A DNA stretch of 64,000 nucleotides, from positions 144,001 through 208,000 of the forward strand of contig NW_024468256.1 of NCBI RefSeq assembly GCF_002104995.1. Direction: 5' to 3'. Positions 4,131 through 29,721 of this stretch are shown here, in pieces. This stretch comes from Linderina pennispora (lineage: Eukaryota > Kickxellomycota > Kickxellomycetes > Kickxellales > Kickxellaceae). The position numbers were made by a program, and so were the translations under genes. The notes beneath the pieces are model-generated. The model searched no databases and was not told the DNA's origin. It saw only the letters and a list, made by a program, of their open reading frames with translations. Each line of letters starts with the position of its first letter. The first letter of the stretch is position 1.

Positions 4131-4214
4131 ATGAATTCGCTGCCGTCCTTTGTCCTCCACACCTGCGACCGCGAGTGCTCGTGCAGCCTGTGCAGCATCG
4201 GCGAAAAGTGCTGA
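4131..4214 (+). CDS. Cysteine peptide A (REC[ST]C family), metallothionein-like
   Basis: A 27-residue ORF starting MNSLPSFVLH and ending CDRECSCSLCSIGEKC-stop, with Cys at 12, 16, 18, 21 and 27. It is one of five ORFs in the window sharing R-E-C-[ST]-C-x-[LN]-C. C-x-C and C-x-x-C spacing is the usual metal-thiolate unit of metallothioneins; fungal copper metallothioneins are also about 25 residues. A good TATA box lies 101 bp upstream and the leader is C/T-rich. No signal peptide or membrane segment is seen, so a cytosolic metal-binding role is the simplest guess. Function is inference; that this is a gene is supported by the repeated motif, position in the ORF and promoter. Confidence 0.65.
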   Translation: MNSLPSFVLHTCDRECSCSLCSIGEKC

Positions 4215-5007
4215 GATGTCAAGGGAACCCTGGCTTCCGTCATCCTCTAACCATCCAGAACCAAGCCTGCTGTACGCCGATTGGCGCCTTTGGCTACCAA
4301 AACCCATCTGTTTATAGCCATCTCTTTGCACAATACATTTCTTAACAATCGATAATCGGCTGGAAATGGCCATGGTATTTGGACTGCAGGCAACGAAGAG
4401 CGCGCAGCTATGGCGAGTGAAGCACAGGTGCTGCTGACCTCAGCCTATGAGCATCTCAAATATCCGCCGTGGAATTGCCAATCTGGGAGCGTGGTACGCA
4501 CCTATTGTGAGGTGGAGCAGAGCCAAGGGGCGAGGCTGTTCAGCATAACCCATGGTGAGGGGTTAACAGCTCGTCCTGTCTCGTATACTCGCAAGAATTA
4601 GTGCGCATGTAGTCTGTGTAGAGGATGCAGCAGGCGTCGATAAGGAGAAATGGCCAAATAGTGGTAGGATAGGAACAAAAGCATATGCAATAAAAGTTGC
4701 AACAACATTAGATAAGAAGTATTGAGATATGCTAGAGCATATAAGGCTAATGAAATCACAACAGAATACGCCGACCACAGCACTAGATCATGGTCTAACA
4801 TGTACTCACTTTGCATCGGTGACACAAATGATAACTGGTGTTGGTCAATCCACGTGCATGTGTCTTTGTTTCCAGGTGGTATATTTATACTCTAGTCAAG
4901 AGCTATGTAGAACGTGGCAAACAGCGATAAGTTCAGAGGCAGCTTCCAATTCATTTATATATATATTATTTTCTGAAATATCAGAAATTGGCTTTGGTGC
5001 CAGGTCT
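4215..5007. other. Intergenic region
   Basis: Holds the 3' region of peptide A and an A/T-rich stretch with a TATATATATAT run near 4958-4970 and a short perfect hairpin TTCTGA-AATA-TCAGAA just before the tRNA. No coding frame is supported. Confidence 0.4.
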
Positions 5008-5081
5008 GCTTTCGTGGCGCAACTGGTTAGCGCGTCTGACTGTTAATCAGGAGGTTGATAGTTCGAGCCTATCCGAGAGCG
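5008..5081 (+). tRNA. tRNA-Asn (anticodon GTT)
   Basis: The cloverleaf can be folded by eye: acceptor GCTTTCG pairs with CGAGAGC, the D arm contains GCGC..GGTTA..GCGC, the anticodon stem TCTGA/TCAGG closes loop CTGTTAA with anticodon GTT, and the T arm is GATAG-TTCGAGC-CTATC. There is no intron. The A box (TGGCGCAACTGG) and B box (GTTCGAGCC) are intact and a run of T at 5085-5089 is the Pol III terminator. It is the only tRNA I find in the window. Confidence 0.96.
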
Positions 5082-5540
5082 ATCTTTTTGCCTGCTCTCC
5101 ACAACCACCTTTTGCTTGGAGCTGTGCTGTGCTGTAAGCCGTTCTTTGTTGGCTCGTTTGTTTGCTGGGCATCCCACCTCACACACGCACACATGCACCC
5201 GCCTGCACCTATTTATCCAGCCCCTTGATACCACCTTTGTTTCTCTTTTTATTACCATTCGTCATTCGTCATTCACAGTGCCTGAAGCAGCTCAGCCCAA
5301 CGGAAAAACCGCCGCACGCCTCCAGATAGAGTTGCGCTGCTAATTTAGCCTTTTTGGGAACGGCCCGCAACATCCGGCGTGGCGCTGCTGCTTGCAAATC
5401 ACGCCAGTTGTTGCCGATGCTGTCGAAAACAGGTAAATAGGGGCTGCTGGTTTGGGGTAACGGCGGCATGCTGCTTGCATTAGGTTTAATATGAAGCGAC
5501 GCAGCCCGGCTCTGGTTTCTGCATGCCGACCAGTCTTTGC

Positions 5541-5546
5541 TATAAA
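5541..5546 (+). promoter_or_regulatory. TATA box of cysteine peptide B
   Basis: TATAAA (context TTTGCTATAAATCC), 106 bases upstream of the ATG at 5647. A second weaker TTTATAC lies at about 5585. Confidence 0.55.
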
Positions 5547-5646
5547 TCCACCGGCTCCCCGGTATCAGCTGGTCTTCTGGCTCTTTATACAGCTCCTGCA
5601 CACCCCTCGTCTACCTCCAGTTCCAGCGCTCGATCTGCCTGTCAAG

Positions 5647-5733
5647 ATGCTCGCACCGACCACCAACACTGCTCTTGTCCTCTGCGACCGCGAGTGCACA
5701 TGCGCCTTATGCCTCAGTGGCCGTGGGTACTAA
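5647..5733 (+). CDS. Cysteine peptide B (REC[ST]C family), metallothionein-like
   Basis: A 28-residue ORF, start MLAPTTNTALV, core LCDRECTCALCLSGRGY-stop, with Cys at 13, 17, 19 and 22. The C-x3-C-x-C-x2-C core is nearly identical to peptide A 1.5 kb upstream (VLHTCDRECSCSLC against LVLCDRECTCALC), which suggests duplication. It lacks the last Cys of A and C. The frame is open upstream to 5491, but the in-frame ATG at 5647 matches the length of the other members. A TATA box lies 106 bp upstream; AATAAA at 5917 is 184 bases past the stop, so the locus has the form of a complete mini-gene. Confidence 0.65.
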   Translation: MLAPTTNTALVLCDRECTCALCLSGRGY

Positions 5734-6274
5734 CCATCGCATCCACCGCCTCTGCATCGCACATGTACATACCACACATACCGACTCGATCTGCCGGCTC
5801 CTTCTCCTCCCGACACCTAGTTTCGGCCAACCACCAAAAGCACGCAGCACGTGCATTCAAAAGGGCATGCATTCTCCAAGCTGCCATCCGCATATTTCCT
5901 CACCCCAGCCCATGTCAAATAAACTATGATATATACATTCACTCATGACGGCATACTTACCTTATTTCTGTGTATATATGCAGTTGATTACTCGCTATAT
6001 GCATTTTCCCATCACATTTACATATAGAGGCTGATCAAGTAATTATTATATCGCTCGGAGAACAGGCAATACATATTGACACTGAGCTATTGAGGCCACA
6101 AATAAGCCGAGTTACTGAACTCGTTAGATGCATGCCAGTATGTGATTACTATAAGATTCAGGTCTCCAATGGTGTGGTTGCTTGACTTGCAAAAGTCGCA
6201 TCTCAGAACATATCCATGTATTTAGTTTGAAAGAATCATACAGTGTTGGCTATTTATTTTGTTTTGTTGGTTAT
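5734..6274. other. 3' region of peptide B and spacer
   Basis: C/T-rich 3' untranslated stretch of peptide B ending at TGTCAAATAAAC (about 5912-5923), then A/T-rich spacer. A very similar TGTCAAATAAA occurs after peptide D. No further gene is seen. Confidence 0.4.
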
Positions 6275-6505
6275 TCACATATTTCTGCTGTCAAGCTCTC
6301 TATGGAGCTGAGCATTAAGCTGGCGCTCTTCCTCAAGCTCTTGCCGGAGACGCTCCCTTGTTTCAATGGTGCTTGCTATGAGAGATTCGAATCCGCGCTC
6401 TATTTCGTCCTCCATATTGGACTTGACCTGTGAATTGGGGGTCTGCTTCCATTCAGCGATTAATCCTTGGACGTACTCGAAGTTGGGAGTAGTGGGGGTA
6501 GACAT
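6275..6505 (-). CDS. Small coiled-coil protein, unrecognised
   Basis: A 76-residue ORF on the minus strand, MSTPTTPNFEYVQGL...RNM. The N-terminal third contains an aromatic motif (NFEYVQGLIAEWKQTP); the rest is one long charged helix with heptad spacing (RERLRQELEEERQLNAQLH). There is no signal peptide. Codon use and the absence of alternatives make it a likely real gene, but I cannot name the family. It stands alone in a gene-poor stretch with a T/A-rich probable promoter at 6510-6620. Confidence 0.6.
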   Translation of the reverse strand: MSTPTTPNFEYVQGLIAEWKQTPNSQVKSNMEDEIERGFESLIASTIETRERLRQELEEERQLNAQLHRELDSRNM

Positions 6506-7393
6506 GGCTTATTGTGGTACGAAATTTGAGGGTGATGTAGAAGGTGGGGTGCGGCGGGAGAGTTTTTGGTACACAGAAATATATTTAGGATACTTTTTTT
6601 TTGAGAGGATGAAAGAAGGGGGAGAGGGGAATAATGAAGCTATTTCGGTGCATGCTGCTGCAGCGCTAGCCTGCAGTTATATATATGCGCAGGTCACAAA
6701 TTGCAGCATATCCTTCACAGAAAGAAGCACCTTAGTTATCTTTGTCGCAATGGTATGCCCCGCCAGAAACCAAACTTTCGTCTGGTTTTCATTTCTTCAA
6801 GCGAGTGAGCTAAAAATAGAACTTGCTCTGATGCAAAAATAAATTCGTGCAGGATTTGTTATGCTTTCGGCTTACAGCATCAGCCTTCAAAGTTATGCTG
6901 CATCGATATGCGGGGGATTTGCAGCAGAAAGTTGCAGTGGGCAGGTTTTGTTCTAAGCTGATGGGCCTTTTGGACATGTCTTTTTTTGAAGTGGAAGGCT
7001 TATGTAAGTTCACAGTAATTTGTAATTGGTCTAGGAATGCAGTCCCTTTTCATGCAGTATGCATTGATGTCGCAAGAGTAAAGAGCTGTAGAAAGGCATG
7101 CGGGATCTGCAGTTTGTTTTCAGTAAGGTTGGTGGTGGTGGGATTCATCCCTACAGGCTGCTGGCTTTGTCCAATTCACCCGACAACGCTGATGGTTTGG
7201 ATATCAGCCAGCATAGTATCTATTTTTAGTTGGGTTGATATCCAGTTGGTAAAGCAAGGCTAGCGACACGCCAAAAAGGATGGCGAGAATGCAACACTAT
7301 AGGATGCATATAAAGGTATGCTATTGAGGACATGTAGTAAGTGCTGGGTTGATTGTTCACGATATGGAGGAAGCCAAGGTTGTTTAAAAATAG
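6506..7393. other. Intergenic region
   Basis: No supported gene in 888 bases. A plus frame near 6847-7263 stays open for about 138 codons without a proper start and with no recognisable motif; I treat it as chance. Confidence 0.35.
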
Positions 7394-8914
7394 TTACTCC
7401 GCATCAGCAATTAGATACGCCCAGGCTGCCAGTGCCGCAGCACTGCGTCTGAGCTGGCCAGCATCAATGACCTCGACGCGATCGCTGTTGGCGTGGTGGT
7501 GGCGGAAGTAGTGGTCGCCCCAGTTCGGGTGGTCGGGCGCCAAGTTGCCCTCGGGATTGACACTCAACCACCCGCCGCAGGGGACACCAGCCTCGCACAG
7601 AATCGCAATGTCCTCAGCTGGCGGCTCCTCCGCCTTGGTGATGTTGCCAGCGCCCAGCACTTTCACATAGTCCTTGCCGTACCCAACCAGCGTGTCAATC
7701 ACCTTCTGGTCGGCCTGGACGTCCATGCCCCAGGGCTCAAACACACCGATATCGCTCTCAATAGCAAACTTGTGCTTGGCGATCTCGTTCTTGTGCTGGG
7801 CGAAATACGCCTGGGCGCCGCGCTGCAGCGTCTCCTCGTTGTTCCACATGACCACGCGCACAGTGCGCTTCGGCCGCCGGCCCTCCTTGGCAATCAACGC
7901 GCGGCCTCCCACGCCAAAAACGCACCAGCCGCATCGTCCATGGCGCCAACGCCGACATCCCACGAGTCAAAGTGGCCCGACAGCAGCACAATCTCATCGG
8001 GCCGCTCACTGCCCTTCAGATCAAAGATGATGTTGGCCGACTGGGTTGCGTTCTCCTTGAATGTGTTCTGCAGTGCCAGATTGACCTTCGGGTGGACAAA
8101 GCCGGATTCGCCCGCCTCCGCGCGCTTGTACAGGCGCTCGATCAGATTGGCATCCGCCGGCGAAATCGACGCAGCCGGGATGGTCGTGCGCGCCGAGTTT
8201 CCGGTGTGCACCGACGCCACCGACGAGTCTGGCGTGGCCGTGCGCACCAGCGCCGCCAGCGCCCCGTATTTAGCCGCCTCCTGGGCGCCGCGGCTCCGGA
8301 ACTTGACCACCTCGCCGTAATTTGTGAAATGGAAGTTGTACAGCACGATGTTGCCCGAAATCACCTTTTTGCCCAGCTTCGCCTAGCTCCTCAAATGAGC
8401 GCACCGGGATGACCTTGGCCGTGATGCCCTTCTTGGGTGTCGACACGGAATTGCCCAGGGCCAGCACTGGAATGTCAACGGAGCCGTTGGGCCGCGTTGG
8501 CACATACAAGCGCAGGGACTCGCTGCCGCGCTCCCACCGGTTGACCCACACGGGCTCGGTCCAGACCGAAAAGTCCTTGTCGTGCTTCTTGACCGTCTTG
8601 ACCACCCACTCGGCGCTCTTGTCGTAGGCCTTGCTGCCGGTCATGCGGTTGCCGTACAGGTCGGTCATTTCGGCCAGCCGGTCCCATGCCACTGTGTTGG
8701 ATTCGTTGAACCCAGCGTTCAGGAGATTCACGACCGTCGCTTCGGTGCCGGTTGCCCGACGCATAAAACGCACTTGCTTGGGCTGGGAAGTAGGGTGTGC
8801 AGAGCACTGGGTAAGGGATGCGAGTCCGCCGATTGTCACAAGGCCAAGAACAAGCACAGAGAGGCTCTTGGTGCGGCTGGATGATGCCACAGGCTCGTAC
8901 TTGTTGAGGGACAT
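7394..8914 (-). CDS. M28 metallopeptidase, carboxypeptidase Q-like
   Basis: A co-catalytic zinc exopeptidase of family M28, closest in my reading to carboxypeptidase Q/PGCP (LRPKRT..V.W.NEE pattern). The N-terminus has a Lys/Ser-rich start and one hydrophobic segment (SLSVLVLGLVTIGGLASL), so it is secreted or a type II membrane protein. Zinc-site motifs: SGHFDSWDVG and GAMDDAAGAF, WNNEE (catalytic Glu plus ligand), ESDIGVFEPWG and a late HHHANSDRVEVID. A protease-associated-like region lies in between (KKVISGNIVLYNFHFTNYGE). Two single-base shifts break the frame, near 8385 (EELGE to LGKKVISGN) and near 7905 (AWEAAR to LIAKEGRRPKRTVR). They cancel each other, no stop lies within the true frame, and both sides are conserved, so I read them as assembly errors. 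Confidence 0.88.
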
Positions 8915-9827
8915 ATTAATGACGAAGAATTAAAATATGGACTGTTGGATTGGGAATGTAGTGAAAAAAACAAGGTTGAGGAGGGAGAGAAGCTTGCCTT
9001 ATAAGCTTGTGAGCCAGCGAGCAGGGAGGGAGCTCGTGGGAAGCGCTAGTACAGCTTGACGACATCGCCACACTCTCTAGAAATTGTGCAATACTAGAGA
9101 TCCACACATTTCGGCGCTACACATCTGTGGGTGTTTTGCACAAGGTTGGCATCATGCATGTCTTGCAGAGCTGATGTTTATACGGCGAATGCTATAGGGC
9201 CGTGCCGCAGCGGCATGGGATTGCTGAATAATTAGCTGCTAGTTGCCAGGTAGCTCTTTTAGGGGAGATTGTTTTCCGCAACTGCAGAACTTTCGCGACA
9301 TGTACATTGCAGGAAGAGTAAAAATAGATGTATCGGGAGAGGATTGCCCAAGGTGTCGCTGGATCTAGGCAACACCTGCCGCAAAAGGAATGTGCTGGGT
9401 TGGTCACGTCATTATCACAAAAGCTGGTGAATAGAATGCGTGAGCAAGAAGCCAATGGGTATGTGGGAGTATCCAACTGACACTATATTGAACAGCGGGT
9501 GTTCATGTATGCAGCTTATGTAGGATCCAGTGACTTGCCGAATTAGCAGCCGATAGTAGATGTGTCTGGATAAGTGGATTACAGGATCTAGGCTGCTCTG
9601 GTTTGGGGGCGGGTTGAGGTGTGGATCGGATTTCCAGGTACCTCCTTCCTAACACAGGGTGCTGCTCCTTTTCCGGATAGACGTGCTGCGTATACAAAAA
9701 AGCAGCAAAACATGCGAGGGTTCCTGGCGGGGTTTCCAGGCCATGGCTGCGGAAAACTGCCGGTATTTAAACCGCTGCCCACTACTACCAACCTTGCCAC
9801 TTTTGTTATTCATCATCACTACAAACA
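8915..9827. other. Intergenic region between divergent genes
   Basis: 913 bases containing the promoter of the peptidase (minus) and of the SVIP-like gene (plus; TATTTAAACC near 9763, 60 bp before the ATG). Nothing else is recognised. Confidence 0.4.
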
Positions 9828-10166
9828 ATGGGCAATACTGTAAGTACCGGGGCATTTCACGACGAGGGCCGCTCACTCGACCTGCATCCAGGATCTACGA
9901 TTGAGTCGCAGCGGGGGGTATCTCAGGACTCTAGTCGGCTGTCGCCACGGGAGGCAGCACGCAAGGCAGCGCTGGATCGGCTGAAAAAGACTGAGGAAAA
10001 ACTAGGCAAGACAAAACAGAGCAGGCAGCTGAGGGGCCTGTATGCGCAGACAAGCACACTGCCAGCAGCAAATCTCGAAGTAAGTCGTAGCATGAAGACT
10101 GCACAGACATGTATTTGCGTGCTACTAACCCTGTGACACATGTTTCTTTAGTGGAGGCAAGACTAA
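9828..10166 (+). CDS. SVIP-like small acylated Cdc48/p97-interacting protein, copy 1
   Basis: Exons 9828-10079 and 10152-10166 around a 72-nt intron (GTAAGT...TTTAG). Product about 88 residues: MGNT start suited to N-myristoylation, then SRLSPREAARKAALDRLKK, a basic helix, and a last exon of only WRQD. REAARKAALDR fits the VCP-interacting motif RX5AAX2R exactly. Metazoan SVIP has the same design: myristoylated MG start, one VIM helix, small size; it binds p97 at ER or endosomal membranes. The assignment to SVIP is by architecture. A paralog follows 265 bp downstream with the intron at the same place and the same WRQD last exon. Confidence 0.75.
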
Positions 10167-10430
10167 GATATTCAGGTGGAAAGGTTTATTAGAGGGCTGT
10201 GGAAATAAACAAAAAAGCCTAAAAAAGCAAAAGGAACTGTAGCAGACCAGCCCGGTCCAGAAATGCTTACGCAGCACGGAACTACATCAACGACATTTCA
10301 GTGAACCCCTGGAAGCTTTCTCAGAAGAATTCTCAAATCGAACAGTTATCCATTTGCTGCCCACGATTCTCCCCCTCTTGGCACAACCTATTTTTCTCTT
10401 CCACACATACTTTTTTTATTTTTAGAGCAA

Positions 10431-10871
10431 ATGGGCAATTGTTGCAGCGGTAATGCCGACCGTACGCCGGCACACAAGAAAGTCAAGGCATTCCAGGGCG
10501 AGGGCCACACGCTTGGCGGACACGGCCAGCGCAGCACATTGAAATGCAGGTGGCCGAGCCCGAGGTCGCGCGGACACGCAAGGAGAGGATGCCCAAGGGC
10601 CCTGGACGGCGGCTGACAGACCAGGGGGTGGATGAGCAGCTGGCGCCGCAGGAGGCCGCACGTCGGGCGGCGCTGGAGCGTGCGCAGAAGAACGACCAGA
10701 GACTAGGGAAGGCCAACCCCAGCGAGCGGCTGAAGAACATGCAGGCACAGGCGTCGGAGATGCCGACTGGGGGGATGGAGGTAAGTGGGTGTTTGGCAGG
10801 AGGCACTATGCGGGGGGTGTGACCATGCGTGCTAAGTTTTTTATTTGCACCTGTAGTGGCGGCAGGACTGA
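10431..10871 (+). CDS. SVIP-like small acylated protein, copy 2
   Basis: Starts MGNCCSG, a myristoylation plus double-palmitoylation signal. The body QEAARRAALERAQKNDQRLGK and the last exon WRQD (10857-10871, after a 76-nt GTAAGT...TGTAG intron at 10781-10856) match copy 1. The N-terminal part does not read through in one frame: from MGNCCSG the frame runs on to FQGEGHTLGG, while the conserved part is in another frame. A 47-nt intron (10450-10496, GTAATG...TTCCAG) would restore the frame, but it would remove FQGEGHTLGG, which itself looks coding; a one-base indel near 10523 is the alternative. The VIM-like motif has Gln instead of the first Arg. Confidence 0.7.
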
Positions 10872-10982
10872 CTTTCCCATTCGAGTTACAAGCGCCACTG
10901 GGCGCGTTATCAGGTATTTTGTTCCCTTGTTTTAACGAGCCAGCAAATAAAAGATTTCTTAAGAGGACGAGTGGTGTTTTTT

Positions 10983-11623
10983 TTACACGGGCAGCTTGAA
11001 CTCCTTGCCCTTGAGCACCCGTGTAAAGTACACGTAGAAGAAGTCGGCGTAGAGACCGGTCTGCACGATGCCAGCAACCCAGGCAATGTAATCGGAGTAT
11101 TTATCCTCGGAGTAGTACCGGTAGATCCAGTTGACGATATATAGGGCGCGGTAGCCACCCAGGGCGAAGATATAATGGCTGGTGATGTTGTCAGCCTCGC
11201 CCGTGCGCGTCATCATGAACAGCTGGGGCATGATGGCCACGGCCTCAAGGTAGATGGAGAACGACCAGAGGATTTCAACGACCTTGTACTTGTGCGGGAA
11301 CACCAGGGCGAACAGGGCGGCGCCGACCAGGACGTACTCGACGCGGAAGGTGTCCAGGGCCCTGTCGTAGGTGGCTTCAGGGGCTTCAGCATCATGTAGA
11401 CGATGTAGCCGGCCGAGCACAGGAAAAACAGCTTCATCAAGGTGTTGTAGATGGACACGAAGGACGTGAACAGATCAAGGTAGCGCGTCACGAACACGAG
11501 GAAATAGAGAGCCTGGGTCTTCAGAGAAATTCCAGCGCACGACCTTGTCTGATGTATGCGCGCAATGAGAATGAAAATTGACCCCAGGTGGAGCAAATCG
11601 GCGACGAGTCTGAACACGTTCAT
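10983..11623 (-). CDS. ERD2: ER lumen protein-retaining (KDEL/HDEL) receptor ERD2
   Basis: Seven-helix Golgi receptor that returns HDEL/KDEL proteins to the ER. Starts MNVFRLVADLLHLGSIFILI, continues RSCAGISLKTQALYFLVFV and TRYLDLF, then TYDRALDTFRVEYVLV, PQLFMMTRTGEADNITSHY and GYRALYIVNWIYRY: the full ERD2 signature, about 213 residues as usual for the family. A one-base shift near 11385, in the run CCCC between MMLK and EATYDRALDT, splits the frame; all motifs flank it intact, so it is probably a sequence error. A promoter of A/T character lies upstream of 11623, shared head-to-head with the zinc-finger gene. Confidence 0.93.
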
Positions 11624-12041
11624 AATGCTAAATTGAGTATAGACAGATGATTGCGAAATGAGGAAAGCTGGAAAGAGAAGGCGGCCAGCGCGACGTGTGG
11701 GCGGGGGTCTATTAAAATGTTCTATCAGCAGCGTGGGCGGGCTATTGGATGAGCCAGGGGTGAACTGCACGTGATGGGGTGTGTCTGGACACAGTTTTGC
11801 AAAAAAGAGGAGGACCTCAGCGGATATTAGGCAGGCAGCTCGGCTAGTGTTTTTCTATTCCTTTTAAATTATTTCTGTACTTTTTTTTTTTTTTTTAATT
11901 TCCAGTGGGCACATTTTAAACTTTGTACTGAGGCCCTCCCCCAGCACAAATATTCAGAGTCAAACTCGTATTATGCACTAGTGCATACCAAGCACACACA
12001 CTCGCGATAAGCACATAGTAGAAACAGCAACAACAAAAAAA
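11624..12041. promoter_or_regulatory. Divergent promoter ERD2 / Zap1-like, with 14-bp palindrome
   Basis: A 418-bp head-to-head intergenic region. It has a long T run (11881-11896) and a perfect 14-bp palindrome ATGCACTAGTGCAT at 11973-11986, 55 bp before the zinc-finger ATG. No gene is seen inside. Whether the palindrome is an operator is inference. Confidence 0.45.
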
Positions 12042-13181
12042 ATGTACAGCAGCAACAAGAGCTCAATGTCGCCTGAAATGCGTCTGGCGCCACTACACCA
12101 CCACTCGCAGAGCGCAGTAGCGGCATCGGAATGTCCGGCCGAAGGTTGTGGGGGACCAGTACAGCTACCGTCGCTGAGCGCGCTCGGAATAGCCGACAAG
12201 CTGCCGGTTACGGACAGCCAAGCGGGCGAGGCGAATTCGTTCGTGGTGACTGGGGCAGCGGCAGCGGCCTCCAAGCGGTGCCTGTGGTCGACGTGCACGC
12301 AGATATTCGGGACGCTGGACGAGCTGGTCCGGCATCTGTACAAGCTGCATGTGGCGACGAACCGGTCCAGCGCGATCGCGGACCTGCAGGCGTCGTTCCT
12401 GTGCAAATGGCGCGCATGCACAGCACACGCATCGGACACGGATGCGCTGATCACGCACGTCTGCCAGGAGCACCTGGAGGCAGGGCGGATCCTGCATAGG
12501 TGCGGGTGGCAGCAGTGCGGGCGGCAGTTCGACACGATAGCGCAGCTGACGGAGCACATAACCACGGAGCATGTGGGCAGTGGCCATAGCCTGTACGTGT
12601 GCATGTGGGACGGGTGCGAGCGCCAGGGGCGGGCGTTTGCGCAGCGGCAGCGGGCGCTGCGGCATATCCAGACGCACACGGGCGCCAAGCCGTTTGGCTG
12701 CTCGGTGTGCCACAAGCGGTTCAGCGAGCAGCACATCATGCAGCAGCATCTGCGCGTGCATACGGGCGAGAAGCCGTTCAAGTGCGACCAGGACAAGTGC
12801 GGCAAGCAGTTCGCCGTGTCGTCGGCGCTGACCATCCATAGAAGGACGCATACCGGCGAGCGCCCGTATGCGTGTCGGTTTGCCGGCTGCGAGCGCCGGT
12901 TCGCCGAGTCGTCCAATCTCACAAAGCACATGCGCATACATACCGGCGAGCGCCCGTTCAAGTGCCCCGAGACGTCGTGCGGCAAGACCTTCTCCCGGCC
13001 CGACCAGGTCGCCCGCCACCAGCGCATGCATAGCGGCGACAAGCCGTTTGTCTGCCAGGCCGAGCGCTGCAATAAGAAGTTTGCGTCGCCGGCCACCCGC
13101 CTCAACCACATGAGGTCGCTGCATCCGCCTGGTCTGCAGGCTGACGAGCCCGCGCCCAAGCTGCCACGGACCGACAGCTGA
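12042..13181 (+). CDS. Nine-finger C2H2 transcription factor, Zap1/ZafA-like
   Basis: An intronless 379-residue protein. After a low-complexity first 80 residues come nine C2H2 fingers. The first four are divergent with W in the C-x4-C knuckle (CLWSTC, CKWRAC, CGWQQC, CMWDGC), the last five canonical with TGEKPF/TGERPY linkers. Divergent CxWxxC fingers followed by a canonical DNA-binding array is the plan of the yeast zinc-responsive activator Zap1 and ZafA, where the W-fingers sense zinc; GLIS/ZIC factors share part of the plan. Nuclear activator role is by family. The divergent promoter contains a 14-bp palindrome. I see no clear copy of the Zap1 element ACCTTNAAGGT. Confidence 0.8.
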   Translation: MYSSNKSSMSPEMRLAPLHHHSQSAVAASECPAEGCGGPVQLPSLSALGIADKLPVTDSQAGEANSFVVTGAAAAASKRCLWSTCTQIFGTLDELVRHLYKLHVATNRSSAIADLQASFLCKWRACTAHASDTDALITHVCQEHLEAGRILHRCGWQQCGRQFDTIAQLTEHITTEHVGSGHSLYVCMWDGCERQGRAFAQRQRALRHIQTHTGAKPFGCSVCHKRFSEQHIMQQHLRVHTGEKPFKCDQDKCGKQFAVSSALTIHRRTHTGERPYACRFAGCERRFAESSNLTKHMRIHTGERPFKCPETSCGKTFSRPDQVARHQRMHSGDKPFVCQAERCNKKFASPATRLNHMRSLHPPGLQADEPAPKLPRTDS

Positions 13182-13304
13182 TCCGCTTTGGTCTATGGCG
13201 AGTCCCGGACGGAAAAAAAAAAAGAAGCGTGAGCTCGTACTGTACACAAATAGGCGTTGGTCCTATTTTTTCTATACTTTCTTTTGCACATAAAATTCTA
13301 CCAC

Positions 13305-20457: not shown

Positions 20458-20706
20458 ATTGTACGGGTGCCGAGGGGCATCCACTGCTGTGTTTTCCTTG
20501 TTATGTGAGGGACATTTAGAGAAAGAATATCTATGATGGAGAAGCAAAAAAGAGGGGAGGGTATCCGGTGCAGTTCTCGCAGTTGATATCCAGGGCGTCA
20601 ACGCGAAAAATTTAAATAAAAAACCCAGACACGACGCGCATTAAAAAAAAACTCCCCACCCCCGCCCAATCACACCGCAGTATCGGGTACGCGTGATCCC
20701 GCACGC

Positions 20707-23700
20707 TCATTGGGCGGACTGGAAGCACCGGAACTGGATCTGGGTGCGGCGCGTGCAGTCGCGCAGAATGTGGTCGACCGTTTCCCAGTGCTCAGGCGAC
20801 AGCGTCACGCCGTCGCGCTCCACCAGCCGGTCGTCGCCGGTCTCAGGCACCGGCAGTCCCTGCTGGGCTGCCTGCTTGCGGGCCTTGGCCTGGGCACGGC
20901 TATACACGGCCCGGACGTACGCGTGCAGCAGGCGGAACGACTCCAGCGCGCGCGGCGTCATGTAGTCGGCCAGCGTGCGGACGGACAAACACCGCCTCCA
21001 GCACGCTCTGCAGCATGCCGCCCTCGCTGAACACGTCGACCCGCCGCACGCTCTCCAGCATCTCCTGCAGCAGATCCGCCGCCAGCTTCTCCAGCACGCG
21101 GCGCGCGATCGGCTGGTGCTTGACCGTGTGGTGCTCGGCCCCCAGGCCCACCTCGCCGATCATATCCATGACCTCAGCATGCGTGAACACCAGGAACAGC
21201 AGCGCCTCGGCCACAGTAGGCCTGCGTGTCCCGTGGCATGGCGTGGGTCGCCCAGCTCACCCCGCCCAGCAGCACCCCGCGCCGCACAATCTGCGCCAGC
21301 TGCGCCGACCGCCCGCCCACGTAGAACCCAAACACCAGCTCGTCCAGCCGCTGGAACGGCTTGCCCAGCTGCTGCAGCGACCCGCCCACCTCCAGCTTGA
21401 ACACATGTCTGATCGCATGCGCATGCAGCAGATCCGGGATCACATATGCCCGGAACGCCGTCAGATTGCACAGCGACGCCAGCAGGAAGAAACTGCGGGT
21501 GCTGTGCCGTGCCTTGCTGGGCTCGGTGCTCTGCTTGGCTGCCAGCCGGAACGACTGCCGCCGCCCCTCCCCCGCCACCCCCTGCGGTGACAATGCGCTG
21601 CTGACGCTATATGGCAGCGACGCCAGCATGCCTGCCTCTGCCACCGGCTGTGTCTTGAACGCCAGCATGTGCAGCGTGTCCAGGAACCCATACAGCGTGC
21701 CAAAGAACGTGTGCTTGACGTGGGCCACCGCCAGGTCGTTCATCTCACGTGCCCGCTCGCCCTGCGCGCGCTGGCCCTCGTCGAATCCCGCGTCAAACTG
21801 CTGCTGCGGCGCCCGCCCGCCCTTGCGCGGCTGCAGTGCTGCCACATGCAGCGTCCCCAGCTGCCGGATGATCGTCTGTGCGGTCCGCAGGAACAGCGGC
21901 AGCAGCTCTGTGTTTGCAATCGTCTCCGCCAGCTCGGCCGCACTGGCGCCGCGCTCGGTCCGCTCCCGCCGCGCAATGTAGAATGTCGGCCAGTATGCTG
22001 TGCCATGGTGCAGCTGCCACGTCTCGTGCTGCCCCATGGCCTGTGCGTCGCGGTCCCACAGCTCGCACAGGAACAGCTCCAGCCCCGCCTTGAGCTGGCT
22101 GATCAGATTCGCCAGGATGATTGCTGCCTCGGCCGCCATATCAATCGCCTCGATGTCGTTGGCCGTGTTCACCACAAGCTCCATGATCGCCGTCATGAAA
22201 TGCCCCGCCAGCAGTGCGTGCGTCTGTGGCAGCCGCTGCACGGTGCTGCCGATGCTCCCGGGCCGCAGGCTGGCCACGTCCACTGCCTCATCGCTGTCTC
22301 CCAGCACCCCCGTCAGCCGCAGCACGTGCTGGCTGTACTTGTTGATCAAGTCCTCCAGCAGCGCATGGCATTTCGTGACTCGGTCCAGGTTCTGCCCCTG
22401 CCGCCGCCGCCGGTTCGGCCCCCGCAGCTCCTCCGGGCCGCCGGTACATGTCCTCCATGTACGCTTGGCTGAGCTTCCAAAAGTCCGGCAGGCTGCGCAC
22501 CAGCGTCTGCGACAGCGTGCGCAGCGTATTGTACATGTGCTTCCACGCGTGGAACTCGACATCGCGCCCATGGCCAAGCACCGGGAAATCTGCAAACGAC
22601 TCGATCCGCAGTGCCCGCGTCAGCTCGTCTGCGCGCTGCTCGACTGCCGTCTCCACCTCCACGCTGGACTGCCGCCAGTCCTGCCCCCCGCGCTGCCGGA
22701 ACGACTGCACCACATCGTGCATCTGCCCCACTATCCACTTGTGCTGGTGCTCGAGGAAGAAAGCGACTGGGTCTGTGTCGCCCGGATCAATCTCCAGCAG
22801 ATGCCGGATCACTGTCTCCTGCTCGCCGTACGCCCGCCACGCCTGGCTCAGGTGCCGGAACAGCGCGTTGCGCAGCTCCACCACGCTCTCCTGCACCTCC
22901 TTCCACACATGCTGGAAAATCCGGCTCAGCCCCGTCGCCCCCGACTCGCCCCCCTCCGCGATTGCTCCCTCGGCCGCCGAAGACCCAATGTCGCCGCTGG
23001 TCACCGCCTGCAGCAGCTGCCGCCCCTTCTTGTACTCACGCACCGCAATGTCAAACTTGCCCTTGCGCGTGTACTCGATCAGGCTGAACGGCAGGTTGAA
23101 GTAGAACTTGTACCGCTCCACCACGCTCAGCGTCGCCCGGATCTTCTCAGCGCGCGCCCGCCGGTCAATGATCGGATTGTAGATCTCGTCTGCCTTCTGC
23201 GTTGTGTCCTGCAGCGCCTGCCCGAATGCCCGCGTCCCGTACTCCTGCGCCGAGTTGAGCGACCGCGACTTCATCTCCTCGTACAGCAAGTCGATCTTGT
23301 TGCGCGCATCCACGAACCGGTCAAAGTTATTATGCACCAGGATCTTCAGCGCCTCCGAGCCTTGCGACATCGACTCGCGCAGCAGCCGCGCCCCCTGCAC
23401 CAGATCCGCATACGATGTGTCGCTGTGCACCACCTGCATGAAAGCCCCTGGCGAAAACCCCTTGTGCGACACGCTGAACTTGGCCCGGTACTGCAGGTCC
23501 CCCAGCGCCCGTGCGTCGCTCTTGCGCTCTAGCACCTGCGTTACCGACGCGTGTACATGTAGCGGGTCTCTATCACTGATTGCCACCGAATGCGATGTCG
23601 CTGCCACTGAGCCGCCGTCGCCAAGCATGCCCGCTCCCTCGTCATCGTCGTCATCGTCATCGTCGTCATCGTAGTCCTCAGTGCTAGCATCGCCTGCCTG

Positions 23701-23883
23701 CAACCGAGAGTGATGCGAATGACTGCCTTCATTGAGTTCTTCCATTCCGAGCTCATCCTGCCCATCACCGCCCTGTGCCCGCCCTGTGCCATCACCATGG
23801 GGCACCACGCTGTCGCCAAATGCCGGGCTCTCGAAATTGTCCAGTCCGTAGTGGTTTAGAATCTCTGCGTCGTCAATCGCCAT
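20707..23883 (-). CDS. SEC5: Exocyst complex component SEC5
   Basis: Large helical tethering subunit that docks secretory vesicles at the plasma membrane. Starts MAIDDAEILNHYGLDNF at 23883. A run of ten Asp follows (DYDDDDDDDDDDEGA), then the conserved block DARALGDLQYRAKFSVSHKG, YADLVQGARLLRESMSQ, LKILVHNNFDRFVDARNKID and FDIAVREYKKGRQLL, typical of SEC5 (K.LVKDNFDRFV.AK..ID). The C-terminal half follows after one-base shifts near 22440, 21210 and 20985; each side continues the same helical protein, so they look like errors. The Asp run is a GTC/ATC microsatellite at about 23639-23675 on the plus strand. About 1050 residues in all. Confidence 0.9.
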
Positions 23884-24224
23884 TCGACAAATGTGCTGAA
23901 AATACAAGGAATATTAGTTAAAGGTGCCTTCATGCGGGGCTGCTGGGGAATGTGATGATGACCTGTCACTAGCTCTCCCGCACCACCCCGAACTAATCGC
24001 TGCTGATACTAGGCCCCGGATTAGAAGAGCAGTCTAACCCTCCGGAACACTGCTAAAACTCAAACAGCCGTTTCACAGGGAAAAAAAAAGCACTGGCCAC
24101 GGTGTCCCTTAATCGCAGAGCAGGCGCGTTTGTTGGAGCGCTTGATGGATTTGCCGTAGCAGTGACTGCCAACCAGCCCCGCACCCTCCTCTACTCGTCT
24201 CCAACACTGCTATATTCACACCTA
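23884..24224. promoter_or_regulatory. Divergent promoter SEC5 / mariner-derived gene
   Basis: 341 bp between two divergent starts. A nine-A run lies at about 24081. No terminal inverted repeat of a transposon could be made out by eye on this side. Confidence 0.35.
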
Positions 24225-25333
24225 ATGGACCAGTTCACCAACCGCGACAAATCCGCCATGATCCTGGCGCTGTGGGCCAAGGGATTCAGCGCCAAGGACA
24301 TCCATGCCGCCCTGGGGTCCATCATACAGAATCAGTCGCCCTCGCTTAACTTTGTCTACGCCGCCTGCCGCCGCTTCAAGGCCGGTGATCTCACACTGGA
24401 TCCCTGCCGTTCCCGCCGCCACACCAGCCGCACCCACTATCCCGCCTGCCAAACGCCAGCTCACTCCTACCGCTGAGCCCACCACTAAGCCTGCCGCCAA
24501 AGCGCCCGCGCACCCCTGCGGCTGAGCCAGTCCTCAAGCCGGAGGCCAAGCCGGAGGCCAAGCTGGAGGCTAAGCCTGCTACCAAGCCTGCTACCAAGCC
24601 TGCTACCAAGCCTGTAACTAAGCCCGAGACTAAGCCCGCTGTAAAATCCGCTGTCCAAGTCTGCTGCCAAGCCCGTAGCCAAACCCCAGGTGGAGCCCAT
24701 GGAGCTGGACGACGACGACAGTAAGGCCAAGCCAGCATCGCACGCCGTGCAGCTGGACCGCGTAGCATTCTGCGAGCGCACCCTGGAGACCTACAAGGGC
24801 AAGTCTGCTGACGACATCGTAACGTGCGCCCACACGCAAATCAAGCCAAACTCGATCTCTAAACAGGTCATGTATGTGATTGTGTTTTTCTCGCGCAAGG
24901 AAATCATCTACGCCGACTTCACCATTACCGAGGCAAAGTTTGACGCCAACCACTACATTGAGCGCGGCATCAAGCCCATGATTGCCGTCTGGAAGGAGAA
25001 GCACCCGAGGACTCAAGCTGGACCGCCTTGTGCTGAACCACGATAACTCGCCTGCATACCGCGCCGAGAAGACCAGGAGCTTTTTGGAAGGGCGCCGGTG
25101 TCCCGACGCTGCTGATGCCGGCCAGATCGCGTGACCTCCTGCCCGGCCACTTTTGGCTGGTGCCCGAGATCGAAAAGTCCCTGCGGTACACGTCAGTAGA
25201 TAACCTCGAGGAGGCAAAGATGGCGTGGATACACGCGCTTGGCAGACTGCAACCTGATGACTTCAAGGAGTGCTTCAGTCTGTGGTTCAAGCGCATGGCC
25301 ATTGTTGTCGAAAAGAACGGCAAGGCATATTGA
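24225..25333 (+). CDS. Mariner/IS630-type transposase-derived protein, catalytic triad degraded
   Basis: N-terminal HTH region of mariner type (RDKSAMILALWAKGFSAKDI ... ACRRFKAGDLTLDP), then an unusual Pro/Ala/Lys linker of about 90 residues (EAKPEAKLEAKPATKPATK repeats, acidic MELDDDD), then a mariner DDE fold. Where active elements have IVTGDE this has IVTCAH; HDN of the second Asp is kept (LVLNHDNSPAYRAEKTRSFL); where YSPDLAPCDFFLFP is expected it has RSRDLLPGHFWLVP. So two of three catalytic Asp are replaced (A, D, H). Five single-base shifts (about 24402, 24512, 24652, 25011, 25092) all move the frame by +1, but no in-frame stops occur. Either a domesticated gene with sequencing errors or a decaying copy. 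No flanking inverted repeats seen. Confidence 0.75.
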
Positions 25334-26537
25334 CCTGTCTCAAAAAAAAAAACTGTCTAATACATCACCCAGCTTCAACCCTTGTATTGCAAGCGGTCTG
25401 TGAATCTGCGTATCCTCCCTGCTGGTGGAAATACCGTTTCTCATTTGCTGGTTCAGCGGAAAGCCGGCCAACACGCGCTATTTTTGCAACCTTCCTTGCG
25501 GCGCAGTCTATGTCAATCTCATTTATTAGGGTGAAGTCACCCCCCCCCCAATACTTGTCGACTGTTTGCAACTCTCAAACCCTATCCCAGCCTCTCCTTT
25601 CCCTTGTAGACACACATGCGCCATCATTCTCCCACCAGCCCCGCGCCAGAATTCATCTCTGCCACTTGGCAGTACTGGTGGCAAATGCACATAGTTGTTG
25701 AAACCACGCCATGCATTTTGTCGAATGCACGTAGCCGACATCCATCCCCAACACGCGCCGCACTCTTTGCCATAGACAAAGTAGCGAGGCTATTGCTGCC
25801 GTGCCTGCGCAGCTGATACGCAGCTGATACGCAGCAGCTTGCACCAGGGACCTGCTCTTTCTTTTACCACCCGCGGTGCCAGAGTGAGAACCCTTATCTA
25901 TTGCCAGCAACACAGCTACAATTGCAATTGCAATTGCATGAAGCGTCCGCTTCTAGCACTGTTCATGCATGAAATTTGCCGAGCTGATAGACTCTCTCCA
26001 CGAATACAGCCTGAAAATTCACAATGTGTTGGCTTGACTCTGGTTTCGTTGAACTCGGAGTGTATCCGTGGGGAAAGACTCTTTTGGAATGGATGAGGCG
26101 GATGGACAAAATAGACTCGCCATCTGCTCCCTGGAATAGATAGTGTCAGGTCAATGTATCCTTTTTCGGCGCATGACGTTCAAATACGGTGCCCTCCCTC
26201 CCACCCACCTACCTATGCCGTCCTGCTCCGTCGGACTGCATAAAAACTTTCAAGGCTGGTCTGCAGTATTATGCGGGACTGAAATAGAAAAAACGACGGT
26301 GTCAACGGGAATGGGGGATGTGCCTGGAAGATTTACTCCACTCTTGTAAGTGATTCTCTAAACCCCCTCTCTCAGAAGGGCAATTCCCAAATACATGCTG
26401 TTTGAACGTCCCTCTCCATGCAATTGGGTACCCAGGAGAAAAACGAGCGATAAACGGAGTGCAAACACAGGCTTTGCTGCTCATTGACATCGGATACCGA
26501 GCTGTAGGCACTTGGCTCTCTAATCCAAGTCTTCTCA
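25334..26537. other. Gene-poor region upstream of peptide C
   Basis: No supported gene. It holds a C10-type run near 25540, a doubled GCTGATACGCA at 25814-25836, a triple AATTGC near 25918-25935 and a TATA-like GCATAAAAAC at 26238 that is followed only by a 12-codon ORF. Confidence 0.4.
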
Positions 26538-26546
26538 TATAAAAAA
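26538..26546 (+). promoter_or_regulatory. TATA box of cysteine peptide C
   Basis: TATAAAAAA in TCTCATATAAAAAAGAC, 137 bases before the ATG at 26675. Confidence 0.5.
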
Positions 26547-26674
26547 GACTGCAGACGCCCTGCGATTTCAAAATGAAAGCATCGCTCATCAACCGATAAC
26601 TCCCTTCCTCTGCTCCCCGCCCCCTGGATACGTGGCATCCTGGTCTTTTTTCCCTAGAATTCCTGTCTACAACC

Positions 26675-26746
26675 ATGATTGATTCCGCATGCGGTGCTAA
26701 CCGGGAGTGCACCTGCTCGCTGTGCACAAACGGCCGGTCGTGCTGA
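26675..26746 (+). CDS. Cysteine peptide C (REC[ST]C family), metallothionein-like
   Basis: A 23-residue ORF starting MIDSACGAN and ending RECTCSLCTNGRSC-stop; Cys at 6, 12, 14, 17 and 23. The terminal C-x5-C (LCTNGRSC) is the same as in peptide A (LCSIGEKC), 22 kb away, although the nucleotides differ at most third positions. Compare the vertebrate metallothionein motif KECKCTSCKK: charged residue, E-C-x-C-x-x-C. The 3' region is strongly C/T-rich. The ORF is smaller than any usual cut-off, but conserved amino acids with changed codons argue for selection on the peptide. Confidence 0.65.
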   Translation: MIDSACGANRECTCSLCTNGRSC

Positions 26747-28157
26747 GAATACCGACATGGATCAAGACCGTCGTCCTCAAGCTTTCCCTACAGCTACATC
26801 GGCCTTCCTCTGCTTCGTCTTGATCGAGCAACCAACGCTCCTCGCATGCAATTGTACATACATCCATCGGTCGCGGTGCTCTCCTTCTCTCATCTTCCAA
26901 AAATGCAGCCCGAATCTCGCCTGCCCATCAGCTTTGTCTGTCTCCGCCTTTGGCAGCCATTGATTCCTGGCCTTTCTCTTCCTCTTTCTCAGAAACCTGG
27001 TCGTCCAAGTCAATATTTTTGAATACATCTAATTTATTCACATCACTCTCGGTGCAAAGCCGCTGTTTATTGCATCAATTGTACGTGTAAGAGTGACATA
27101 GACTGGCGTCATGTCGCTCACTTGCGTCAAACCTATCATCAACAATGGCTGTAAGCATCGGGTGTTACAAGAAATCCCAACTCAGTCCTCGGCCGGCATA
27201 TACTTATGCATATAACTTTTCCTAATATAGTGTCAAGGAGGCGCAGCAACCACAATTGTGCAGGAAAATCCGCTCATAATGCGTGAAAAACGCGGGTCCT
27301 GCAGTGTATACAGGCTGCCTGCACCAAGGTGCATAGCTAGCAGCTGGGGGCCTGCGGTGTGCTAAATGCAATAGAATGTCTGTAGCCACCTGTGCCTGTA
27401 TGCAATCTGGCCTTGACGGCCTTCTGCTGAGACTCAGGCATGTCAGCGGCTAGCAAGCGGCCGTCCACTTGGCAAGCACGCCTTGTTGCTCCAGACTTAC
27501 TCCCAATTGAACAATTGCGAGCGGGATATTTTGTGCTCAGTTGGTGGCAAACCACCAGCTAGCTGCATATATTGGCAGCCGCTTCCCCCATTGCCTAGCG
27601 CCCAGAGAGCACATTTCTGGCCCTCGTGCAGCCATTCTCGGTGACGAAAATCCAACATGAGTGCCTCATACTGACTGAGGAAGAGTACGCAGATTTAATA
27701 TGACCTTTTTTGGAAAGAGGGATGCTCGACTGACCTGCTCGTTTAACCTCCCCGCGGCCCAACCGCCTATCACGTCCCACGGGGTCCTGCGGAATTGGGC
27801 ATAAATAGTCGGTAAGCGACAGGGGTTAGGTGGCTTATAGCAAGCGGGTTGCTTCTTTTTGTTGCTGGGCAGCTTTATAATGCTGGCTGTACAAATATTC
27901 ATGGGTGACAGGCGTGCAACCTGCCAGTTTGCACACCTCCTTGCAGCCTAGCAAGGCAGGCAGTGGCAAGCGCAGTTTTTGCCTTCCTGCAACCCCTCCG
28001 AGAGGCAATTGCAGCAGCTGTGCGTAATAATGATCAATGTGGCCTGCACTGCTTCCTAGCAGTCGCCCTTGGTTGGTATTTAGGTATAAGAGTGTACAAA
28101 TCCTAGGCTACTCAGATCTTCCTGTCATCCTGCTCTTTTCTTCGTCTTTTCCCGACA
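26747..28157. other. Gene-poor region between peptides C and D
   Basis: C/T-rich 3' region of peptide C to about 27000, then spacer. From 27900 to 28030 there are many GCAA/TTGC words, and a TATA-like GGTATAAGAG occurs at 28083. No supported gene. Confidence 0.4.
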
Positions 28158-28211
28158 TGTATACCAAGCATAGCGACTACAATCCAGACACCAGCCTCTG
28201 CAAGTCTTAAC
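28158..28211 (+). promoter_or_regulatory. Possible 17-codon upstream ORF of peptide D
   Basis: ATG 28158 opens MYTKHSDYNPDTSLCKS-stop, about 75 bp after a TATA-like GGTATAAGAG (28083) and 72 bp before the ATG of peptide D. It would be the first ORF on a transcript starting near 28110. It may be an upstream ORF, a separate micro-peptide or chance. Confidence 0.25.
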
Positions 28212-28282
28212 TAAACAAAATATTTTATTGTCTATTTGCACGCGCATCGGTATATTGTACATATCGCTTATACATAGAAACC

Positions 28283-28375
28283 ATGGTCGCCAATGCCACC
28301 TGCCATCTTGTTCTACATAACACTGACGAGTGCAGTCGTGAGTGCACATGCGAATTGTGTCGGACCACCCGATAG
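28283..28375 (+). CDS. Cysteine peptide D (REC[ST]C family), metallothionein-like
   Basis: A 30-residue ORF starting MVANATCHLVLHNT with core DECSRECTCELCRTTR-stop; Cys at 7, 17, 21, 23 and 26. It has the C-x3-C-x-C-x2-C core of A and B, plus HLVLH resembling FVLH of A and LVL of B and E, so the hydrophobic V-L patch before the core is also shared. The ATG context AACCATGG is good. AATAAA at 28542 is 167 bases downstream, within TGTCAAATAAA as after peptide B. No signal peptide is evident. Confidence 0.65.
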   Translation: MVANATCHLVLHNTDECSRECTCELCRTTR

Positions 28376-29613
28376 TTGCTGCACCTAAAAGCCTGTACCA
28401 ATCGCATCTTAGATAGTTGCCTATATTGACAGCCAACGACAGTGACGGCGTGGAGACTGTCCTTTTTGACCGACAACCCCAAAAAAAAATGGACATGGCA
28501 CTGGAGCCGTTCCTAAAAATGCTGCATTTCATCCACTGTCAAATAAAACCACTTTACATTCCTCTCGGACCTCACTCTGTCAAATGATCCTATTTGCCGT
28601 AATCAGCACAGGGACATGTATACTTACGTATCTGTTATCTGCATCTGCATAGATGCACCGGTGTGATTCCCTCATTGCCTGATGTCATACAGGGCGATCC
28701 GATAAATAGCCACCATAGACCATAGGTTCTCATATCGGACCAAAAAGAGCTTGACGTCATTGATCGAGCAAGTGCTGTCGGACATACACCTGCTCTCTAC
28801 TTGTGCAAGGGGGTGGTGATTTTGCACTATGTGCTGTATGTAAAGCCCTACATAGCCAAATACATACACATTAGGCCATATATGTGATATCTGTGCCCCA
28901 GCTGTTGCACATGCATGTGTTTGTTGAAATGCGACAGAAATGTTGTCGTCTTCAACTGATAACGCCATTGCAAGTCATATTTGTGTTTTGTTTTTCATGC
29001 AGCACATCCCCATTTAGAAACGGCATTCTCAACCCGTGAATATCCAGGCCCATTCCCGTGAATATCCAGGCCCATTCCCGTTTCTATCCTGGACCATCAA
29101 TGCAACCCGATGCACATCTTGAGGCGAAGCCGAGTGCCGCCACCTCACCTACGATGCGCCTTGTGCAAACAGAAAATAATCGACCAAATAATGGAAATCT
29201 GTCCGTTTGCACTGCTGTAAAAGGCTAAATTATCTGTACGTTGGGGAGGACGGGATTGAAACTTGTGACATGACTGCAGTGGCTGCAGTGCCTAGTCGCC
29301 TGCGACAAGCCGTGAGTGTTTCCGAGCACACCAATGCAGCTGCCAGACAGTGGTTAGTTTCACAATGCCAGAAGTGAGGGCAACCTTGCAGTTTAGAAGA
29401 AAATACTCTGTGCTTTCTTTTTCTTTTTTTGCTGGCCCGGTGTAAGGTCGCCTCACTCCTTCCTTCAGCTAAGATTACCCCTTGCCCAGTTCCTGGCTGC
29501 ATCCTCTTCTCCTCCAACTGCAACTGTAACCAGCAATAAACCCCTTGCGCTTTTTCTTAACCCTTCGCACTCTATTTTCAAGCTACGCTAAACTGGCCAG
29601 AAAACGACAAGAC
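28376..29613. other. Gene-poor region between peptides D and E
   Basis: 3' region of peptide D up to about 28560, then 1 kb with no supported frame. Contains the short tandem duplication annotated separately. Confidence 0.4.
29036..29079 (+). repeat. 22-bp tandem duplication, two copies
   Basis: Two perfect adjacent copies of a 22-mer beginning GTGAATATCC and ending CCATTCCC. Non-coding; probably replication slippage. Confidence 0.9.
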
Positions 29614-29721
29614 ATGCATTGCACTTGGACTACAAATATGCGCTTCGGATCGTGCTATGGACTTGTCTTGCAGCGGGAATGTACATGCAAAAACTGCCAG
29701 CTAGGCCATTTTAGCCTCTAG
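29614..29721 (+). CDS. Cysteine peptide E (REC[ST]C family), metallothionein-like
   Basis: 35 residues from ATG 29614 (MHCTWTTN) or 27 from the in-frame ATG 29638 (MRFGSCYGLVL). The core is LQRECTCKNCQLGHF-stop region; Cys (long form) at 3, 14, 23, 25 and 28. L-V-L-x-R-E-C-T-C-x-[LN]-C links it to B and D. Codons of the core (CGG GAA TGT ACA TGC) differ from all other members. AATAAA at 29824 lies about 100 bases after the stop. The upstream region is T-rich with no strong TATA. Confidence 0.6.
   Translation: MHCTWTTNMRFGSCYGLVLQRECTCKNCQLGHFSL

Follow-up and report, generated by a model that had tools for sequence, protein, structure and literature searches.

A dispersed, partly clustered family of predicted very short cysteine-containing peptides in Linderina pennispora, with metal binding as a plausible function

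What is encoded by five tiny open reading frames (ORFs), each closing on almost the same cysteine-containing sequence, in one stretch of the genome of the fungus Linderina pennispora (contig NW_024468256.1, positions 144,001 to 208,000)? We refer to this whole stretch of 64,000 nucleotides (nt) as the window and number it from its first letter. A model working from the letters alone (the sequence-only reading) had described the ORFs as an undescribed family of mini-genes with a conserved peptide, for which metal binding was its leading guess. The observation is confirmed and its interpretation partly supported: the sequence supports a family, which is larger than proposed, with six further peptides elsewhere in the genome, and it supports peptide-level conservation, gene-like surroundings and clustering. 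For the whole we consider the best explanation, with roughly an even chance of being right, to be that stand-alone mini-genes, dispersed over the genome and in part clustered, make metal-binding peptides.

The peptide family and its frequency against chance

All five plus-strand ORFs lie where the sequence-only reading had placed them and encode the peptides it had given, each followed by a stop codon (lengths in amino acids, aa):

4131..4214, plus strand: peptide A, MNSLPSFVLHTCDRECSCSLCSIGEKC, 27 aa
5647..5733, plus strand: peptide B, MLAPTTNTALVLCDRECTCALCLSGRGY, 28 aa
26675..26746, plus strand: peptide D, MIDSACGANRECTCSLCTNGRSC, 23 aa
28283..28375, plus strand: peptide E, MVANATCHLVLHNTDECSRECTCELCRTTR, 30 aa
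29614..29721, plus strand: peptide F, MHCTWTTNMRFGSCYGLVLQRECTCKNCQLGHFSL, 35 aa

An extra Cys stands shortly before the core in four of the five (C-x3 in A, B and E, C-x5 in D), one more than had been counted, and the B ORF is also open as an 80-aa in-frame extension (P0001).

The motif REC[ST]C..C no more than 8 codons from a stop, preceded within 35 residues by an in-frame Met, occurs five times in the window; when the window was resampled 200 times from a third-order Markov model, no resample contained it. Searched in all six frames, the window has EC.C..C at the five ORFs and at one other place (minus strand, 12003), which has a background-like score of 8.1 where the five ORFs score 31.6-38.9, on a matrix trained on family members. 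The 26.2-Mb assembly was then searched with degenerate DNA patterns, the same pattern reversed serving as the control. The REC[ST]C pattern gives 26 matches against 1 for its control; on translation 18 of these are family loci (A four, B six, C two, D, E, F, G two and the doubtful H) and 8 are chance-like. Other patterns gave 67 versus 8, 35 versus 2, 16 versus 1 and 25 versus 0. The sequence-only reading had named a motif no commoner than chance as what would undo the family, and in both comparisons (5 versus 0, 26 versus 1) it is commoner. That the set is an artefact of chance or of repeats is scarcely credible: segmental copying does multiply A and B and inflates the raw counts, but there are 11 distinct sequences, five matches against none in the resamples, and a DNA likeness limited to the motif.

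The family as we accept it numbers these 11 different peptides, and the assembly has 22 copies of them (A 4, B 6, C 2, D, E and F 1 each, G 2, I 1, N 1, O 2, P 1). Those found elsewhere in the genome are:

Peptide C, MHSSADSCDRECSCALCTSGRSC
Peptide G, MEMDRVPRLFRISYDEDHHGRECTCNLCQG
Peptide I, MAFCHDRECNCSNCQVDGTK
Peptide N, MQGIPHIERISYDEGHARECICSLCRNC
Peptide O, MQFPDTSIAKPDRQCTCTLCIGGRGCRWY
Peptide P, MAVAHTRSTFVSYDRQCTCSLCRGGLSC

Read as ORFs, all 11 are 20-35 aa long and carry the core R-[EQ]-C-x-C-x-[LN]-C, which stops 2-9 residues short of the C-terminus. Arg and Glu are partly set by the search patterns used; Gln replaces Glu in O and P, and Cys replaces Arg in the contig C112 copy of O, so that Arg-Glu is a strong preference and not merely an effect of the search pattern. 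At the Ser/Thr position there is Asn in I and Ile in N, both found with looser patterns. The score matrix was trained on the 11 accepted cores, which inflates their scores; H (27.1) and the C112 variant of O (29.4), both outside the training set, compare with at most 17.1 for the remaining places. Peptide O was recognised among the listed places of a much looser pattern, CxCx[LF]C, of which 12 out of 100 listed (418 counted) were examined as candidates without any proving member-like.

Several likenesses that go further than the search motif link the peptides. D matches peptide C (C28, C112) at E=0.0095, G and N both carry RISYDE (E 1.2e-4 and 2.0e-4), and in P the core is preceded by SYD, giving SYDRQC. 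Orientation is the same inside each cluster (A-B, D-E-F, C-O, P-G and I-H-J). Part of the copies, on the short contigs C28, C181 and C193 among others, could represent alternative haplotypes, in which case the true copy number would be below 22. The two copies of G (L030 5163 and L035 8405, minus strand) differ by one base beside the stop codon; the C201 copy has one base more than that on C181 and runs 12 residues further, to a stop 14 codons past the motif; the counts use the C181 copy.

Two places beside I on C157 are left as doubtful (L027, C157:779500-789499, in which 4607 and 7058 are H and J, minus strand). H reads VDRECTCRNC, without an in-frame ATG and with its stop 51 codons on, and J reads IREECTCRLCGE up to its stop, likewise without an in-frame ATG; they are possibly decayed or spliced members. 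The J frame was at first likened to G, a likeness dropped as probable chance, and candidates K (C155), L (C46) and M (C1:190k) are not counted as members; the member count likewise leaves aside the unretrieved matches of the patterns that gave 67 and 35. A 20-codon ORF, MQRNVVSMVPECSCQQCFRT, runs on the minus strand from 4307 of C155:14000-22000 (L043) with AATAAA 155 nt past its stop, and a second ECSCQQC place is at C157:1250060; together they are a possible further member with Pro for Arg. Three other places in the window may be noted. At 4602-4643, right after a TAG and on the same strand as A and B, CACSLCRGCSRRR ends at a stop and could be a decayed member; the short ORF MNTGTGNNQGERTTSCVCGYCKN at 43622-43693 has C-x-C-x-x-C near its stop and is a possible divergent relative or chance; and a perfect 22-bp tandem repeat (2.2 copies) lies between E and F at 29033-29081.

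Conservation of the peptide and of the DNA

DNA was compared among ten loci, A to J, with 1.2 kb on each side (less at I), N, O and P having been found later. Once the overlapping flanks of neighbours are set aside, in-register matches at the motif are seen in five pairs (A-B, B-E, B-H, C-D and D-J), including the two lowest E-values (0.011 and 0.044), and whatever else matches is short (12-18 nt) and scattered. In the codons for Glu/Gln and the three core Cys of the 11 members, one first position, no second position and four third positions are variable. Codons for the same residues thus differ among the paralogues, as had been claimed, and to judge from these alignments it is the peptide and not the DNA that is conserved between them, with DNA likeness in register limited to the motif. 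Among recent copies, the A ORF is unchanged across the four-copy DNA alignment as listed, and its peptide is identical in the four copies. The C-terminus of B is GRGY in the window copy and GRGC in the five others.

Signals around the ORFs

The following promoter-like and 3'-end-like features accompany the ORFs of the window:

4030..4037, plus strand: TATAAAAG, putative TATA box of A, ATG-free from here to the A start
5541..5546, plus strand: TATAAA, putative TATA box of B, ATG-free from here to the B start
5584, plus strand: TTTATA, second and weaker TATA-like site of B
5918..5923, plus strand: AATAAA, 184 nt 3' of the B stop
26538..26543, plus strand: TATAAA, putative TATA box of D, with a short ORF from 26573 in between
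28085..28090, plus strand: TATAAG, putative TATA box of E, with an ATG at 28157 in between
28542..28547, plus strand: AATAAA, 166 nt 3' of the E stop
29824..29829, plus strand: AATAAA, 102 nt 3' of the F stop

A TATA box 100-140 bp upstream, part of the sequence-only reading, has a candidate at A (TATAAA 101 nt before the ATG), B (-106) and D (-137); at E there is TATAAG at -198 and at F only AATAAA at -79, with no ATG from there to the start. The proposed downstream AATAAA is likewise found at B (184 nt), E (166 nt) and F (102 nt) and is lacking within 400 nt at A and D.

Taken over the family, AATAAA occurs within 300 nt on the 3' side of seven of the 11 loci (B, C, E, F, G, I and N; null 0.083, p=6.5e-6), and near 0 of 12 unrelated C[STR]Cx[LF]C places used as a contrast set, some with flanks shorter than 300 nt. 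The 100 nt before the start are free of other ATGs at 7/11 loci (null 0.168, p=6.6e-4). A stop follows within 10 codons of the last core Cys in 11 of 12 sequences (the 11 members and H, of which H lacks it; null 0.277, p=6.7e-6); J stands outside these 12 and would have been a success. The hexamer TATAAA, on either strand, is the highest of 1682 in the 400 nt upstream (7/11 versus 0.156, nominal p=4e-4), and nine of the 11 loci have a TATA-like site, in some cases a weak one, about 80-210 nt upstream of the ATG, N having none and O one at -389. These binomial tests take the 11 loci as independent and were run after the members had been chosen, partly by eye. Among the six B copies the share of variable columns jumps from 2-8% to 24-25% at about 5900, the site of the AATAAA. 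Promoter-like and 3'-end-like signals of their own thus appear to be present statistically, and are missing at some loci.

These signals bear on whether the ORFs might be terminal exons of longer spliced genes, with the nearby ATG incidental, which we regard as very improbable. Acceptor-like pyrimidine-AG stretches seen by eye before D, G and P would fit such a structure, the likeness of G and N extends upstream of the G start, and H and J have no in-frame ATG. At nine of the 11 loci, however, the TATA-like site is so near that a further coding exon would hardly fit upstream; among the matches listed, the motif frame is the only upstream frame common to the loci in an equivalent position; and copies of A that encode the same peptide differ by a frame-shifting 2-nt indel in the leader.

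The copied segment and neighbouring genes

The assembly has several copies of the segment that carries A and B, some of them on short contigs. On this segment a tRNA-Asn (GTT) gene (5007-5082 in the window) precedes B in all six copies. In four of the six (L031, L032, L033 and L034) B is followed on the same strand by a cytochrome P450 frame, about 600 aa long, and no such frame was found after B in the window and C193 copies. H is followed by PLA2_B-type frames. The ten window frames scanned include an M28 peptidase, an RXT2-like protein and a bZIP protein, and no metal-homeostasis gene was found among 20 frames scanned, a selection of large ones. One match to the copper-fist family is present in the genome, a sign of no more than the possible existence of a copper-type regulator. 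The CCT-beta protein of this genome is 93% identical to those of Coemansia erecta, C. interrupta and Dipsacomyces and 92% to that of Kickxella, genera of one family, which places the fungus in or near the Kickxellaceae.

Arrest peptides typically have a conserved end near the stop and a variable N-terminus, as is the case here, and each ORF could be a regulatory upstream ORF (uORF), its constant end halting ribosomes and thereby regulating a gene further along the mRNA that both share; the P450 frame on the same strand 3' of B and the PLA2_B-type frames 3' of H would fit. We nevertheless find this improbable. AATAAA lies within 300 nt on the 3' side of the ORF at 7/11 loci, and the B copies diverge sharply at theirs, B persisting without the P450 frame in the window and C193. 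D, E and F follow one another, and among the frames scanned there no larger Pfam-supported gene is seen between them; the motif, moreover, can stand anywhere from 2 to 9 residues before the end. Nor is any downstream frame common in an equivalent position to the 11 loci, over a reach of at most 1300 bases, shorter at I and N, and among the matches listed; DNA upstream of A matches DNA downstream of J (E=6e-5), at positions that are not equivalent. The arginine attenuator peptide and other fungal arrest-peptide uORFs are also short ORFs conserved toward the end, but here there is no consistent main ORF and the distance from the motif to the end is variable. The uORF reading is disfavoured by the lack of an equivalent downstream frame, the intervening AATAAA at most loci and the copies of B without a P450 frame.

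Metal binding and its alternative

Every one of the 11 peptides has at least four Cys and His residues in total, G being the poorest in Cys (three) with His-His before the core. All 11 share C-x-C-x-x-C, which the search pattern itself contained, and the longer C-x3-C-x-C-x2-C is found in A, B, C and E. The number of Cys and His together with this Neurospora-like spacing makes metal-thiolate binding the best single functional guess, and a plausible one on the composition of the peptides. Transcription, translation, location, metal binding and cellular role we infer as follows. Each locus would probably give a short mRNA with a TATA-type promoter, an often ATG-free leader, one ORF of 20-35 codons and AATAAA. 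Its peptide would combine a fast-changing N-terminus with the near-constant C-terminal site and, in the most likely mechanism, would remain inside the cell. There the C-x-C-x-x-C thiolates and at least one further Cys or His could bind Cu(I) or Zn(II), held by one peptide alone or by two paired peptides, and the metal would be buffered much as by a metallothionein of very small size. The Arg-Glu/Gln pair might stabilise the site or mediate recognition.

The near-constant Arg-Glu/Gln is, all the same, not accounted for by metal binding alone. The main rival, doubtful in our judgement though to be taken seriously, is that these are real mini-peptides whose C-terminal R-[EQ]-C-x-C-x-[LN]-C serves recognition or redox chemistry and whose metal binding is incidental, the peptide regulating a partner protein or cycling between thiol and disulphide. 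Metal alone would need only the Cys, whereas Arg, Glu/Gln and Leu/Asn are near-constant in the 11 members and the number of Cys outside the core varies. The partner protein is hypothetical, however, and the constancy of Arg and Glu is partly fixed by the search patterns, the looser of which admitted Gln for Glu in O and P, Cys for Arg in one O copy, and Asn and Ile at the Ser/Thr position in I and N, respectively.

Several results weigh against stand-alone, metal-binding mini-genes. Cys makes up only 10-14% of six of the 11 peptides (counting the other B variant, six of 12 sequences have 17-22% and six 10-14%), and His occurs in 8/12 of the listed sequences, aromatic residues likewise in 8/12. 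The copper-type patterns HTHNNGCTGD (p 0.90), DWDDHGCTGD (p 0.89), TTTGCTC (p 0.57) and GCTGCTG (p 0.17) are not enriched upstream of the nine loci tested (O and P left out), and neither is the zinc-type TGCRCNC (p 0.36); TTTGCTG has p=0.037 as one of nine patterns tried (six metal-type and three TATA types), and metal-response sites, as far as these patterns reach, are not convincingly enriched. AATAAA is missing at A, D, O and P, and the enrichment of TATAAA is lost on correction for the 1682 hexamers. Between the B copies, where dN/dS (the ratio of nonsynonymous to synonymous change) had been proposed as a check, 2 of 87 ORF columns are variable, both nonsynonymous, and likewise 2 of 87 in the leader, so ORF and leader are equally conserved and the recent copies lend no support of this kind. 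As a single-sequence query A finds only its own four copies. The loose CxCx[LF]C pattern gives 418 matches against 84 reversed, a count set aside as evidence because its matches include a dispersed repeat. The 18-mer TGTTGCTGCCCTCTTTGC recurs many times on many contigs among these places, which suggests such a repeat.

Two profile searches (seven sequences each, O and P left out) of 5.8 billion predicted proteins returned only the window's own 80-aa ORF. This too counts against the family, as weak evidence of absence, since ORFs so short are seldom annotated and the queries, of at least 40 aa, were padded with non-conserved upstream residues. Pfam gave no match for the six members scanned and an eight-member profile matched 0 PDB sequences, the shortness of the sequences limiting both tests; the N. 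crassa metallothionein sequence as a PDB query does find 1t2y. The same metallothionein as a query against this genome found nothing, in a search without a positive control. Six core strings led to no biological paper in the open-access literature, where such peptides are undescribed among the matches listed.

As to metal binding, then, the sequence-only reading is made plausible by the Cys and His numbers and the Neurospora-like spacing and finds no convincing support in homology or metal-response sites, the Cys content being mixed. Framed more narrowly, as lineage-restricted stand-alone genes of an early-diverging fungus for metal-thiolate peptides of 20-35 residues, Cys-poorer than known metallothioneins, marked by R-[EQ]-C-x-C-x-[LN]-C, multiplied both locally and segmentally and invisible to gene callers, the proposal is one we hold tentatively, at somewhat short of an even chance.

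These findings point to a multi-copy gene family with a product of 20-35 residues in all, which standard annotation is apt to overlook. Metal buffering in this lineage is little described in the open-access literature covered, where a single paper among those listed mentions both Coemansia and metallothionein. If metal binding is true, the family bears on the minimum number of residues for a useful metal buffer and on the repeated origin of metallothionein-like genes. The motif with a nearby stop codon is a simple search key for such genes in other Kickxellales genomes.

Comparison with known metallothioneins

Metallothioneins have a Cys content of about 15-35%, with few His or aromatic residues, and Magnaporthe Mmt1, a metallothionein-like fungal peptide, is about 22 residues long. 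The fungi-I metallothioneins of Neurospora crassa (PDB 1t2y) and Agaricus bisporus are also tiny (a 25-residue chain in 1t2y) and Cys-rich, and the C-x3-C-x-C-x2-C spacing of A, B, C and E occurs in the C-terminal part of the Neurospora protein. The peptides described here differ in the Arg-Glu/Gln kept before the core and, in several, in His and aromatic residues. The two fungi-I metallothioneins have seven Cys (PMC13107397) versus the 3-5 found here. With no detectable homology, 3-5 Cys in place of seven, and His and aromatic residues present, membership of the fungi-I metallothioneins fails on the sequences at hand. Mmt1 resembles the family as a metallothionein-like fungal peptide and is credited with antioxidant capacity; it differs in being reported from infection structures, the cell wall of the appressorium among them (PMC9036806). 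The fungi-IV metallothioneins of Yarrowia lipolytica are longer (a position 54 exists), with a central CCC and a Cu4Cys8-9 cluster (PMC13107397). They are nonetheless encoded by several small Cys-rich, copper-induced genes, two close pairs among them, and one member has a C-terminal Cys changed to Tyr (PMC13107397), like the window copy of B.

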